Both the position numbers and the translations under genes were made by a program. From Moraxella ovis (lineage in GTDB: Bacteria > Pseudomonadota > Gammaproteobacteria > Pseudomonadales > Moraxellaceae), in the NCBI RefSeq assembly GCF_900453105.1, contig NZ_UGPW01000001.1, positions 248,001 through 312,000 of the forward strand: a DNA stretch of 64,000 nt. Reading direction: 5' to 3'. Below, in pieces: positions 3,404 through 54,692 of the stretch; the stretch's first letter is position 1; each line of letters begins with the position of its first letter. The notes under the pieces were generated by a model. It made no database searches. It saw nothing but the letters and a program-made list of their open reading frames with translations, and had not been told where the DNA came from.

Positions 3404-3762
3404 GGGGATGTTCTGGCTTCGACGCTGGTGATGAAACCTAATGATGCACGTCAAGAGCGTATGCCTCTTGTAAATCAACATACATTTAAAATAGTCGCAA
3501 ACGACGAAACTTACGCACTAGCAGCCTAAGGGCTACTTGGGTCGGCACAGATTGCCTTTGGTCTGGTTGCTCACCCCGATGCGAACGCACAAAGGATAGC
3601 ATCTGTTAGCGTTGCGATGACAGGTGCGAAACTCTTAGCAAATCGTCCAATCCACCCTGACTGTCGGGTCGGTGCGGATTAAAGCCAAAGACAGACTCTA
3701 AGCGTGTAGAGTCATGGGCGTAGTGCTGGCGGACGCGGGTTCAACTCCCGCCATCTCCACCA
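3404..3762 (+). ncRNA. ssrA: tmRNA
   Basis: This is transfer-messenger RNA, which rescues stalled ribosomes and tags the nascent peptide for proteolysis. The 5' end GGGGATG pairs with the 3' end CATCTCC before ACCA, and the T-arm GGGTTCAACTCCC is present. The tag-coding frame at 3497-3529 gives ANDETYALAA then stop, a tag of the type used in Acinetobacter and Moraxella relatives. The length of 359 nt is normal. The gene stays intact because the prophage regenerates the 3' end on integration. Confidence 0.97.
3749..3762 (+). other. attL: attL core, inside the ssrA 3' end
   Basis: The sequence cgccatctccacca forms the 3' end of tmRNA including CCA. It is repeated exactly at 45927-45940. Flanking bases differ on both sides, so the visible identity is 14 bp. 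tmRNA 3' ends are common targets of tyrosine integrases. Confidence 0.9.
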
Positions 3763-3952: not shown

Positions 3953-5071
3953 ATGCTCACCGATAACAAAATCAAAGGGCTAAAACCCACCGAAAAACGC
4001 TACTCGCTATCAGCAGGCGAAGGCTTATCCATTGATGTCATGCCAACAGGTCGTAAGTCTTGGGTGCTAGAATACACCGCCCTTGGCAAACGAAAACGCA
4101 AAAAACTTGGTGAATACCCAGCCGTCAGTCTAAAACAAGCCCGAGAGCTTGCCAATAAAATCAAAAACAACGCAGGATTAACACCCATCACGGTCAGCGA
4201 ACTCATTCATGAATGGATAGAGCTGCACAGCAAGCAATGGACAAGTGAGAAGTACAAATACACCGTCATCTACCGCCTAACCTACATCACCAACGATTTT
4301 AAGGACATGGCGGTGGCAGATGTCAGCCGTGCAATGGTCTCAAAAGCCGTCAGTAACATGGTCGCACAAGGCACATACGAGACCGCCAAACGCTCATTAC
4401 GCCTACTGTCTCAAGTATTCAACTACGCCATCGCCCACGAATACGCCCAGAACAACCCCTGCACGCTGGTTGATAACATCATACCTACCCACACCGTGCA
4501 AAATATGGCAACATTATCCGCCGATGAGATGGCAGGTTTTTGGCACACCATCAGAAAAACACCCACCATCGGACTTGCCCCTGTCGCTCTATCGCTGGCA
4601 AATTATTTGGCGGTGCGACCCAGCGAGCTGTGCAAGGCGACATGGGACGAATTTGACCTAGATAAAGGCGTGTGGATTATCCCTGCCTATCGCATGAAAA
4701 CACGGCTTGAACACGCCGTCCCGCTTGCCAGTCAGCCGTTAAAGATTTTAAAGGATTTGCACGCTTCACGCCTTGATGATGGCTTTGTGTTTAAACATCA
4801 CAGCAACCCCACCAAGCCCATGCCGATTGAAAGTGTGTTGGCGGTCATCAAGCGAGCAGGATTTGGCGGTCGTATGACCACGCACGGCTTTCGTTCGCTA
4901 TTTTCTACGGTAGCAAATGACAGCGGGCTATGGCGTGCTGATGCGATTGAAAGACAGCTTGCCCACACCAAAAAAGATGTCCGCCATGTCTATAACCGTG
5001 CTGAATACTGGGACGAGCGTGTGGCACTCATGAGCTGGTGGGCGGATATTGTGGCAGACTGGCAGGCATAA
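3953..5071 (+). CDS. int: Tyrosine-type site-specific integrase
   Basis: A 372-residue phage integrase of the P4-like type. The N-terminus has a DUF4102-like arm-binding region (LTDNKIKGLKPTEKRYSLSA, ending near residue 75), followed by a core-binding SAM-like domain. Catalytic residues visible are Arg222 (VRPSEL), His311 and Arg314 (HGFR), and Tyr347 (HVYNR). The gene lies 190 bp inside attL and reads inward. It should recombine the phage att site with the ssrA 3' end. A strong terminator follows its stop codon directly. Confidence 0.96.
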   Translation: MLTDNKIKGLKPTEKRYSLSAGEGLSIDVMPTGRKSWVLEYTALGKRKRKKLGEYPAVSLKQARELANKIKNNAGLTPITVSELIHEWIELHSKQWTSEKYKYTVIYRLTYITNDFKDMAVADVSRAMVSKAVSNMVAQGTYETAKRSLRLLSQVFNYAIAHEYAQNNPCTLVDNIIPTHTVQNMATLSADEMAGFWHTIRKTPTIGLAPVALSLANYLAVRPSELCKATWDEFDLDKGVWIIPAYRMKTRLEHAVPLASQPLKILKDLHASRLDDGFVFKHHSNPTKPMPIESVLAVIKRAGFGGRMTTHGFRSLFSTVANDSGLWRADAIERQLAHTKKDVRHVYNRAEYWDERVALMSWWADIVADWQA

Positions 5072-9298: not shown

Positions 9299-10027
9299 TT
9301 AGGTTAAATCAGCCAGACTGTCGGCAAAGAACGCAGGCAGCGTCTTTTGTTTTTGGCTGTGGTGGTATTCGCAGGACTGTGCGATGTCGGCTAACAGCTT
9401 GGCTGTGATGTCCTTGTCATCGCATTTTAGGACTTGGCGAATGAATGTCTGTTCGGCAAGATGTACCGCCGCTGTGTACTGCTCGCAGGCGGTAAATATC
9501 TCGCTAAGCTCACGCCCCAAGATGGGCAGATGCTCGGTAGTAAATGGCTGTCCTGATGGCACGCCTGACACACGACGCAGACGATGCCATATGGCATGAG
9601 AAGCCGACTCGGATTTAAAAAACTTCATCTTGCACAGATGTACCAAATGAGCCAAGGCGACTTGCTGTTTGTTCGTCAGGGCGTTGGTGGGCTTTTGGCG
9701 ATATGAGCCTGTTTTGCGGATTGTGGGCAGGACTTCATCAAAGACCCAGTTTTGGAATTTGACCGCTTCGGCTTTGTTAGAACGGAAAATCACACGGTAT
9801 AGGTTGGGTTCGGAGATGAAAGTGATTTGTTGAACTCCGCCTTTGGTAGGGGTGGAAAGTTTTGCTACCCCTTTTGGGTCAAGATTGAAAGTGCTTACGG
9901 GGCGATTTTGCAAAGCCAAAATAGCTGACACATCAGCAAGGCAAAAATAGGGCTCATCACCTTTTAGAGCGGTGCGGACTTGATAAGATTTGTCAAAATT
10001 GAAAATTTGAATGTTTGACATAGTCAT
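9299..10027 (-). CDS. BRO-N family phage antirepressor
   Basis: A 242-residue protein. The N-terminal BRO domain covers residues 1-110 (FNFDKSYQVRTALKGDEPYF, FISEPNLYRVIFRS, FQNWVFDEVLPTIRKTGSY). A helical C-terminal domain follows (from about residue 118), similar in layout to ORF6C-type domains. Such proteins bind DNA or inactivate phage repressors. It has its own leader of almost 390 bases that includes a C4-like RNA unit and switching stems. The start is ATG at 10027, with ATG at 10021 as an alternative; the Shine-Dalgarno lies in CGTTAGGA at 10030-10037. Confidence 0.9.
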   Translation of the reverse strand: MTMSNIQIFNFDKSYQVRTALKGDEPYFCLADVSAILALQNRPVSTFNLDPKGVAKLSTPTKGGVQQITFISEPNLYRVIFRSNKAEAVKFQNWVFDEVLPTIRKTGSYRQKPTNALTNKQQVALAHLVHLCKMKFFKSESASHAIWHRLRRVSGVPSGQPFTTEHLPILGRELSEIFTACEQYTAAVHLAEQTFIRQVLKCDDKDITAKLLADIAQSCEYHHSQKQKTLPAFFADSLADLT

Positions 10028-10215
10028 TTTCCTAACGATAAGAGTTTAAAAATCCTACCACAGAAAAACGCCAAGTTTAGGGTGGTAGGGGTTACAGGAT
10101 TGGCGTACTGTTCGTTAGGTAACAGCGTATCTTGCGATACTCCCATAACCCCTACCATAATGGGGGTGTACATTTTGCGTACACCCTTTTAGGAAAGGGT
10201 TATAATTTTATTATA
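10028..10215 (-). promoter_or_regulatory. Structured leader of the antirepressor mRNA
   Basis: A -10 box TATAAT lies at 10210-10215 on the minus strand, without a good -35. The leader then forms several stems: gggtgtac/gtacaccc, GTATC-GCAA-GATAC, and an 11-bp long-range stem between 10146-10156 and 10084-10094. Segment 10082-10089 can instead pair with 10054-10061, so two folds exclude each other. Segment 10099-10120 is complementary to the C4-like RNA. The same segment is complementary to 10068-10074 and to the Shine-Dalgarno region 10031-10037. A translation switch is inferred. Confidence 0.6.
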
Positions 10216-10243
10216 CCCCTTTATTTGGGGTAATTAGTGCAAT

Positions 10244-10324
10244 AAAAAAACCGCCTTTGGGGCGGCTGCATTGCAACCTAACGAAATTCAGAACGCCAAT
10301 TCTGACATCGGATTTTGCCGATGT
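10244..10324 (-). ncRNA. C4-like antisense RNA upstream of the antirepressor
   Basis: A complete small transcription unit on the minus strand. The predicted start is near 10324, then stem-loop acatcgg/ccgatgt (10305-10324), stem-loop cagaa/ttctg with loop uuggcg (10289-10304), a single-stranded block uucguuaggu (10276-10285), and terminator hairpin ccgcc/ggcgg (10251-10265) with T7. The length is about 81 nt. The loop block and the single-stranded block are complementary to 10099-10105 and 10111-10120 of the downstream leader. P1 C4 RNA has the same size, place and two-block pairing with ant mRNA. Family membership is inferred. Confidence 0.7.
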
Positions 10325-10330
10325 GGGTAT

Positions 10331-10359
10331 ATCATACCCCACTAATTGCCCCTTGTCAA
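10331..10359 (-). promoter_or_regulatory. Strong sigma70 promoter for the C4-like RNA
   Basis: On the minus strand TTGACA (10354-10359), a 17-bp spacer and TATGAT (10331-10336). It is close to consensus and is the best promoter in the prophage by eye. The start would fall at about 10324, the first base of the first hairpin. Confidence 0.75.
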
Positions 10360-10369
10360 TCCCCCAATA

Positions 10370-10404
10370 AAAAATCCACGCGGTGAAGTGGCGTGGACTT
10401 TTTT
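10370..10404. terminator. Bidirectional terminator behind the DUF2335-like gene
   Basis: The stem tccacg.../...cgtgga (10375-10397) is flanked by A6 on the left and T8 on the right. It lies 10 bases beyond the stop of the gene at 10415 and can end transcription in both directions. Confidence 0.7.
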
Positions 10405-10414
10405 TTGATTTTTT

Positions 10415-10867
10415 TTACGGATTGGGTGGGGGATTTTTAGGCTGTTGTCTTAGCACATAGACAATTAAAATACCAATAATCGCTGTAATAGCAACACCAG
10501 CAACCCAACCATTATCATAATACAATGCCAATCCTGCAATCGCAAGCAGACCCATACCAAGTGCCAAACCAAACCACTGTCCACGCCCCATCAAAGACAG
10601 GTTCGTTTTATCCATTTCTATCAAGGCGGTATTGACACGCTGTGCTTCGGCTATTTGGCTGTCTTGTATCTTATGGCGTTGCTCTTGTTCGGCTTTTGCC
10701 ATTTGCATAACTTGCTCAACATATTTTGGGTCAATTTTGTTGAGTTCGTGTAAAAATTCCGCAGGCGGATAAGGCGAATACTCCTCCACCTGCTCAAACT
10801 GTGCTTGTAGTCCACGCTCATCTTGGGTGGCACTTACTCGTGTGCCTTTACGCTGTTTTTGGTTCAT
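10415..10867 (-). CDS. DUF2335-like membrane protein
   Basis: A 150-residue protein. The soluble N-terminal part is helical (about residues 35-95, DPKYVEQVMQMAKAEQEQRH), then two transmembrane helices separated by a short DNGW turn, and a proline-rich end. This layout matches DUF2335 phage proteins. The ATG at 10867 is chosen; the longer frame lacks a better site. It overlaps the upstream gene by 20 bases. It forms a small unit with its own promoter, palindromic operator and terminator, which looks like a moron. Confidence 0.75.
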   Translation of the reverse strand: MNQKQRKGTRVSATQDERGLQAQFEQVEEYSPYPPAEFLHELNKIDPKYVEQVMQMAKAEQEQRHKIQDSQIAEAQRVNTALIEMDKTNLSLMGRGQWFGLALGMGLLAIAGLALYYDNGWVAGVAITAIIGILIVYVLRQQPKNPPPNP

Positions 10868-11069
10868 AGCGTACCATTCCAAGTGAACTGCCAACCTTTT
10901 TGCTGGCATTAGACATATCCACACCGACTGCTTGCCAATCTTGTGCAATACCGCTTGGCTGCACTTCTACATTGGTTGGGCGAATGTAGCGTGGTTCTGC
11001 TGATACTGTACTTGGTAATAACATCATTGCTGACATCACGCCCTCCAAAAATGGAGACAGTTTATTCAT
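10848..11069 (-). CDS. Small exported protein with signal peptide
   Basis: A 73-residue protein with a signal peptide (MNKLSPFLEGVMSAMMLLPS, probable cut after VSA). The mature part is short and polar. The ATG at 11069 is chosen because AAAGGCG lies 6 nt upstream; a start at 11093 is less likely. It overlaps the DUF2335-like gene. Function is unknown. Confidence 0.6.
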   Translation of the reverse strand: MNKLSPFLEGVMSAMMLLPSTVSAEPRYIRPTNVEVQPSGIAQDWQAVGVDMSNASKKVGSSLGMVRYEPKTA

Positions 11070-54250: not shown

Positions 54251-54692
54251 TTATAAAACAGATCAAAAACATGCAAAAATTTTAGCATAAAAGTGGATTT
54301 TTTGGCAGAAATGGCGATTTTTTAAGATAAATTGTTACAAATTTAGGTTAATTTGGGGTTAATTTCTTAAAAATTTTAGGGAATATTTTGATGGTTTTTG
54401 TGGATTTTCACATAACTGACACATGAGAAATTTTGATAAATATTTTGAATTTTCATGAAGTTACACAAAAGTACGATTGAATAATCATCATTTGATGTAA
54501 TGAAAATTGGTCCATCATTTATTTTTAAAATACCGAACATTATGGTCGCCTATTGGATAAACGCAAAACTTTTGGGTATTCTGTATCTCAAGAATCGCAG
54601 GCAACTAATTACCCATCGGTATAGGCAGTGATTTGGTTAGTGCAGCGGGCGCTGTACTGATGACAATCCACCATGGAATCTAGGAGACTATC
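54251..54692 (+). promoter_or_regulatory. A+T-rich region upstream of aceA
   Basis: About 440 bases without a gene. The first 300 are very A+T-rich; the end has a ribosome site TAGGAGACTATC before the aceA ATG. A long leader is likely. I could not fix a single promoter with confidence, nor any known operator. Confidence 0.4.

Follow-up and report, generated by a model that had tools for sequence, protein, structure and literature searches.

A prophage locus of Moraxella ovis with an isrK RNA and a C4 antisense RNA upstream of an antirepressor gene, and its likely kinship with Gifsy-1 and P1

Organization of the isrK-C4-antirepressor locus

The window analysed here is a 64,000-nt stretch of the Moraxella ovis genome (contig NZ_UGPW01000001.1). 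On its reverse strand, upstream of a gene for a BRO-N antirepressor, two small RNA elements follow one another, the first belonging to the isrK family and the second to the C4 family (Table 1). Since both match their Rfam models above the gathering threshold, we assign to isrK the RNA of about 81 nt with two hairpins, a single-stranded block and a terminator that the first-pass annotation had proposed, and that fold and pattern scan recovered, and to C4 what had there been taken for a segment of the antirepressor leader. The leader does contain switches, as had been claimed, but the segment in question is itself the C4 RNA, which had been missed; the search with RF01695 suggested at the time was confined to positions 10230-10360 and would have passed it by. 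In the same way, the term "C4-like" for the small RNA is apt for the two-block, C4-type pairing at the antirepressor, but the RNA itself is an isrK that copies the C4 target.

The isrK element has its own promoter, the TTGACA-17-TATGAT site noted earlier, and an intrinsic terminator, both recognized as pattern matches, and is computed to pair with the downstream C4 region of its transcript; binding of Hfq by isrK is taken from the name of the Rfam family (RF01394). For C4, a three-helix fold with blocks a' and b' exposed is predicted (fold z -6.6), and these blocks are complementary to a2 and b2, of which b2 is the ribosome site of the antirepressor. Complementarity between the two RNAs takes the form of a perfect 10-nt inverted repeat (10111-10120 / 10276-10285) and a 16-nt repeat of 88% (10095-10110 / 10289-10304), and the alternative partners at 10074-10068 (TTGGCGT) and at 10038-10031 (TCGTTAGG, in the Shine-Dalgarno region) are also present. 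All pairing segments described in the first-pass annotation (10099-10105, 10111-10120, 10068-10074, 10031-10037 and 10082-10089) were found at those coordinates. Its proposal that the small RNA mimics the ribosome-site region stands as well, since a1 and b1 of isrK copy a2 and b2, and b2 is the Shine-Dalgarno region.

With the a1 and b1 targets upstream of C4, the window resembles the Rfam family c4-a1b1 (RF03163), although its score of 30.4 bits in the Rfam scan lies under the family cutoff of 46.7. A small icd gene of the P1 type between the C4 target and ant is absent from the window, where the 242-aa antirepressor itself lies at the target. The start of this gene is more likely at 10021 (MSN...) than at 10027, because a homologue aligns from the second methionine and because 8 nt instead of 2 nt then separate AGGA from the start; computations on the leader used 10027. 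The stretch 9900-10420 had no match in plasmid records.

Table 1. Features of the isrK-C4-antirepressor locus (positions within the window)
Feature	Position	Strand	Description	Score
isrK promoter	10331..10359	-	-35 TTGACA 10359-10354, spacer 17 nt, -10 TATGAT 10336-10331	pattern score 11/12
isrK RNA (RF01394)	10244..10324	-	about 81 nt	Rfam 61.4 bits, cutoff 50
Block a1 ATTGGCGT	10293..10300	-	in and beside loop of second isrK hairpin; complements C4 a'	
Block b1 TTCGTTAGGT	10276..10285	-	isrK block, mostly unpaired; complements C4 b'	
isrK intrinsic terminator	10244..10267	-	stem 10267-10249 and U-tract	
Short ORF through C4	10024..10173	-	49 aa; stop 2 nt before likely ant start 10021; counterpart of Gifsy-1 orf45	
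C4 antisense RNA (RF01695)	10078..10162	-		Rfam 68 bits, cutoff 45
C4 P1 stem	10157-10141 / 10099-10083	-	inverted repeat	
C4 block b' ACCTAACGAA	10111..10120	-	third-helix loop and two stem bases	
C4 block a' ACGCCAAT	10099..10106	-		
Target block a2 TTGGCGT	10068..10074	-	in antirepressor leader	
Repeat X GTGGTAGG	10054..10061	-	copy of C4 P1 5' strand, between a2 and b2; alternative partner of P1 3' strand 10089-10082	
Target block b2 TCGTTAGG	10031..10038	-	overlaps antirepressor Shine-Dalgarno	
Antirepressor gene (BRO-N)	9299..10027	-	242 aa; PHROG "anti-repressor Ant"	Bro-N 4.3e-17

Several other features were noted around the locus. An inverted 13-mer, GGGGYAATTAGTG, flanks isrK at 10227-10239 (+) and 10340-10352 (-), one copy lying between the -35 and -10 boxes; a third copy with at most one mismatch was not found in the window, and one with two mismatches occurs at 54603-54615. 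These copies are possibly operator sites. The segment 10325-10339, which overlaps the isrK -10 box, is the sole perfect match to GGGTATNATATACCC within the window. A gene for a DUF2335 membrane protein (PHROG moron category; 10415-10948, reverse strand) lies directly upstream of isrK. Farther away, a tmRNA (3404-3762) adjoins a phage integrase gene (3953-5071), and this junction is possibly the attachment site of the prophage.

Co-occurrence of isrK and C4 in the order and class

The search for isrK covered 57 relatives together with 293 genomes from the order and 369 from the class, sets which partly overlap in genomes, and gave matches in 13 of the relatives and in at least 45 and at least 25 genomes of the order and class sets, respectively. 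Seventy-five loci including that of the window, and in addition that of Salmonella prophage Gifsy-1, were scanned with Rfam. In 66 of these 76 isrK loci a C4 lies downstream on the same strand, 6-82 nt away; none was found at E 0.01 in the other ten (L012, L014, L015, L019, L025, L038, L070, L071, L072 and L074). By eye, L025 and L038 were judged to hold C4 remnants, and L074 (1578-1740) a C4-like element seemingly without its second helix and with a', b', a2 and b2 kept. Among the matches listed for the order set, 66 of 95 isrK matches adjoin a C4 match, as do 41 of the 43 scoring above 50 bits, and 66 of 133 C4 matches are preceded by an isrK match.

The comparisons below rest on 65 loci, one of the 66 (L054) having too little downstream sequence; counts concerning the ORF, the next gene start and the ribosome site are based on 63, two loci (L011, L028) being without the start of an ORF of at least 20 aa at +38 to +63. 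In 45/65 loci the end of a promoter-like site is 6-8 nt upstream of isrK (in 3.5% of shuffles one occurs anywhere in 50 nt), and a terminator-like hairpin follows b1 in 61/65. A second promoter before C4 was considered and dropped, a promoter-like site being present within 60 nt in 2/65 loci.

The first gene after the module varies among the 63 loci and encodes Bro-N (10), AntA (3), KilA-N (3), P22_AR_N (1) or ORF6N (1) proteins as well as others including RadC and SymE. Two tandem modules within about 1.5 kb were observed in L050 (1501-2625) and L069 (166-1684), and at least 13-14 C4 matches per genome in G179, G282 and G320 (also G202 and G242).

Locus-specific pairing and co-change of the two blocks

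For each C4 of the 65 loci, pairing with the isrK RNA and leader of the same locus was set against pairing with those of all other loci. The mean duplex energy of C4 with isrK is -30.8 for own and -19.6 for other partners (0/10,000 permutations; -19.5 with shuffled isrK), and that of C4 with the leader -27.0 and -20.3, respectively (0/10,000 permutations), statistics which ignore kinship among the loci: de-duplication at a k-mer similarity of 0.5 removed 0/65, and several loci share one genome. A control stretch gave equal values for own and other partners (4,314/10,000 permutations), and the P1 stem of C4, used as positive control, gave -30.0 for own and -18.3 for other strands. The own isrK is the best partner of C4 in 43/65 loci and the own leader in 20/65; in the window, the own isrK ranks first of 65 partners and the own leader only sixth of 65. 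Some foreign pairs equal own pairs in score in a cross table of six loci: the C4 of Moraxella phage Mcat4, for example, reaches -30.7 with Gifsy-1 isrK and -31.0 with its own, and the window C4 -23.2 with the Gifsy-1 leader and -21.9 with its own. Mean binding energies, computed without kissing loops, are -3.0 kcal/mol for C4 with isrK and -1.8 kcal/mol for C4 with the leader, the former being stronger in 45/65 loci.

At the level of blocks, exact complementarity to the own partner over 6 nt or more is found for a'/a1 in 65/65 loci, b'/b1 in 60/65, a'/a2 in 61/65 and b'/b2 in 58/65, compared with 14-18% for the partners of other loci, in a set of loci picked by family models that include part of block a. 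All four blocks reach at least 5 nt in 55/65 loci, and the (a,b) cores are different in each of the 65, some being short where a block is weak. Among the 57 loci whose b2 reaches 6 nt or more, overlap with the Shine-Dalgarno is seen in 52. An ATG occurs within 15 nt after b2 in 54/54 loci, a count that partly reflects the procedure, since b2 was looked for upstream of the chosen start, and after b1 in 6/54.

The first-pass annotation would have counted its proposal as refuted if homologous prophages had retained the antirepressor and lost the complementarity. Mcat4 (KR093628) has isrK (61.9 bits) and C4 (71.3 bits), together with an antirepressor related to that of the window (63% identity over 118 aa); block a is the same as in the window, whereas block b reads TACAAAGG in place of TCGTTAGG in both isrK and leader, with C4 changed to match. 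Partial losses are seen in two loci from this genus. L004 retains block a at the two sites, but the longest exact run of its block b is 4 nt with either partner, isrK or leader; L011 has isrK and C4 but neither b2 nor a gene start at that position. Three phage records with a related antirepressor stretch (Mcat15, Mcat17, S1249) yielded no C4 or isrK match at E 0.001; the phage records were found through antirepressor matches covering 10-15% of the query, and Mcat14 was left out of the RNA scan. In the Mcat4 record an annotated "hypothetical protein" (L079 1427-1552) overlaps isrK and C4 and may be a misannotated RNA gene.

Predicted folding of the long transcript

For the long transcript of the window, the predicted minimum-energy fold has isrK paired with C4 and the 3' strand of the C4 P1 stem paired with repeat X (10082-10089 with 10061-10054; z -8.7), in agreement with the second switch proposed earlier at 10082-10089; forcing the C4 fold costs 6.7 kcal/mol. 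Corresponding folds for the 65 loci have isrK and C4 paired in 35, the P1 stem kept in 24 and the P1 3' strand paired with X in 48. The energy of this last pairing is -17.0 for own, -14.1 for other and -10.5 for shuffled strands, and own and other differ by 0.7-0.8 in two control stretches. An outer stem across the U-tract of isrK was rejected: its own and other values (-8.8 and -8.1; 45/10,000 permutations) differ by no more than those of the controls (0.8 and 0.7).

The predicted effect on the ribosome site is less uniform. Its unpaired probability in the window is 0.12 with C4 folded and 0.46 in the long transcript, that of Gifsy-1 is 0.39 in both states, and the mean over 63 loci goes from 0.36 to 0.40. 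Part of the effect of the P1 3' strand on the ribosome site is generic (0.48 with the own strand, 0.42 with another locus's strand, 0.38 for the leader alone), the own strand exceeding the other-strand control in 36/63 loci. The modelled switch is thus well supported as a pairing and weakly so as control of the ribosome site.

Comparison with Gifsy-1, P1 and P4

The isrK-orf45-anrP locus of Gifsy-1 shares with the window the succession of an isrK with promoter and terminator, a C4 (in the orf45 region) and an antirepressor-like gene, as well as a short ORF that runs through C4 and ends at or just before the gene start. It differs in the gap between isrK and C4 (25 nt, compared with 81 nt in the window) and in block b, and the antirepressor of the window is of the BRO-N type. 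The published orf45 has 45 codons, starts inside C4 and overlaps the C4 RNA. When published positions are mapped, G28 and G31 fall in a1, C159 and C162 in a', and A107 at position 5 of C4, and the anrP leader contains a2 as GATTGGCGT and b2 as ATCACCG, adjoining the Shine-Dalgarno. The RNA STnc1160, of about 80 nt, is described in the text consulted of PMC4825925 as processed from the same transcript as isrK, which fits an identity with C4. In its main text that paper contains none of the terms "Citron", "phage P1", "RNase P" and "c4 repressor".

General conservation of the short ORF is not supported. Among 63 loci, only three (window, Gifsy-1 and L027) have no more than 4 nt between its stop and the following start, and 8/63 lack an ATG where C4 begins. 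Where such an ATG is present (55 loci), its frame is open through C4 in 38, compared with 27 and 33 for the other two frames, a weak excess (Fisher p 0.05 and 0.43). A role of the ORF in the window is possible, and as a feature kept across loci it was discarded.

Phage P1 (NC_005856), whose record annotates a1, b1, c4, a2, b2 and icd, has a1, b1, C4, a2 and b2 in the same order as the window; there, icd is at the start controlled by a2/b2 and ant comes after it, whereas in the window ant itself is at that start. Rfam scores in P1 are 68.8 bits for C4, 51.0 for c4-a1b1 and, below the cutoff of 50, 35.1 for isrK. A hairpin with arms ACCGCAG/TTGCGGT and a 10-nt loop follows b1 and is itself followed by ATTTTTGT; the simple terminator scan, limited to loops of at most 8, did not list it. 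The first-pass annotation had seen in the terminator of the small RNA a difference from P1. The terminator is indeed present in the window, but it does not clearly set the window apart, because P1 has an isrK-like terminator of its own at the end of a sub-threshold isrK match. According to the consulted part of PMC5320573, the C4 of P1 and P7 is processed by RNase P from a longer transcript and represses in trans.

Twenty C4 loci without an isrK match were sampled. An upstream a1 of at least 6 nt was found in 19 and b1 in 16, with 38% and 36% for foreign partners, a weaker contrast than at the 65 isrK-C4 loci; a2 was found in 18 and b2 in 17 (foreign about 20%). Our own scan detected a terminator-like hairpin in 7/20 and none in 13/20. 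The CI RNA of phage P4 is flanked by two copies of its target (seqA and seqC) and acts on transcription termination. It resembles the window in being an antisense RNA between two target copies and differs in acting on termination.

Proposed mechanism and alternatives

The families, their positions, the locus-specific pairing and the co-change of blocks are observed features of the module; expression, read-through, processing, and the sign and strength of control at the window locus are inferred. We consider it probable that the window holds an immunity module of a prophage working as follows. From one promoter, a transcript would mostly end at the isrK terminator, giving the short isrK, and would sometimes read through C4 into ant. 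In the long transcript C4 would fold, probably being cut out as in P1, and its blocks a' and b' would pair with a2 and b2 of the ant leader, covering the Shine-Dalgarno; with C4 folded, the leader would moreover be able to sequester its own ribosome site. The short isrK, which carries both blocks without a gene start, would in trans bind a' and b' of C4 as a decoy and open C4 in the long transcript, whereupon the 3' strand of P1 could pair with repeat X. As proposed, ant would therefore be translated and the phage repressor opposed.

The first-pass annotation left the sign of control open. In Gifsy-1, translation of anrP goes up from 3 to 417 units, or 139-fold, when isrK is supplied in trans (Hershko-Shalev 2016, PMC4825925, Table 1B, in the text consulted), and activation of ant by isrK is for this reason our best guess for the window, by analogy. 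In cis, however, the isrK mutations G28A and G31A likewise raise basal anrP translation (4 units without them, 93 and 218 with them), and the inactive fold is regained with complementary mutations (PMC4825925, same text). A pure decoy predicts the opposite of such an effect of mutations in a1; pairing in cis thus has an inhibitory role, which the proposed mechanism explains only partly.

The model published for Gifsy-1, in which isrK makes the ribosome site of the short ORF accessible and coupling then brings about the translation of ant, with no need for C4 in trans, is possible for the window, if somewhat doubtful. The 49-aa ORF through C4 stops 2 nt before the likely ant start much as orf45 does before anrP, the weak excess of open frames points the same way, and for Gifsy-1 itself coupling has been demonstrated, the authors holding orf45 translation to be required, as it is for full activation (PMC4825925, text consulted). 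Yet the abutting stop is confined to three of 63 loci and the ATG is absent from 8, whereas a2 and b2 are kept in most, and, according to the same text, mutation of the first or both orf45 start codons leaves a response to isrK of 20- to 23-fold (3 to 61-68 units), and a stop codon one of 8-fold. We consider it unlikely that C4, by binding nascent a1/b1, sets read-through at the isrK terminator in the manner of P4 CI and seqA, with isrK as a by-product. Such control would suit the terminator-like hairpin after b1 at nearly all isrK loci, and is discussed for STnc1160 by the Gifsy-1 authors; it agrees less well with the 13 sampled C4 loci that have no such hairpin, and constitutive STnc1160 strengthened, and did not weaken, IsrK-mediated arrest (PMC4825925, text consulted).

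The inhibitory effect of cis pairing between isrK and C4 in Gifsy-1 (PMC4825925, text consulted) might also suggest that isrK represses ant, stabilizing the inactive fold of the long transcript, and that no activation takes place in the phage of the window. This appears improbable, given that Gifsy-1 isrK activates when supplied in trans and that, in the window, the ant ribosome site is predicted to be more accessible in the isrK-paired fold than with C4 folded. The locus would hardly be a chance arrangement or a degenerate remnant without function: apparent remnants do occur elsewhere (L025 and L038, by eye), and neither RNA was found in the three phage records that share a related antirepressor stretch, but the window has an intact gene, intact copies of all four blocks and above-cutoff scores for both families.

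Relation to known RNA families and significance

Both isrK and C4 are known RNA families, to which the window locus adds a member, and together with c4-a1b1 they look like one co-evolving module. No publication joining isrK and C4 RNA as one system was found in the mostly open-access literature, as far as its text was available, nor was the link found in the parts consulted of PMC7067206 or PMC8198154. Judging from the portions consulted, a review (PMC12197685) handles C4 and isrK separately, a paper on Xylella (PMC12189769) lists C4 and isrK annotations side by side, one on Acinetobacter (PMC5320573) reports C4-like RNAs together with two RNAs that are antisense to these, and c4-a1b1 is listed by Weinberg 2010 (PMC2864571).

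On balance we lean towards the view that isrK, c4-a1b1 and C4 form one module which recurs through the order and class of the window. In it, the antisense RNA would stand between two copies of its target: the copy at the ribosome site of the first gene, and a second copy, often released as a small RNA by a terminator, that acts as anti-antisense. The two blocks would then be a co-evolving address that sets the immunity type, and orf45 of Gifsy-1 would owe its conservation to being C4 and not to being an ORF. C4 of P1 and P7 and IsrK of Salmonella Gifsy-1, which have been studied apart, appear to be the same system. This would give the target of IsrK a known identity, and it predicts a direct C4 site at the Shine-Dalgarno of anrP and a short isrK-like RNA in P1. 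The two-block code would also offer a way to assign many prophages to immunity groups and to test the assignment.
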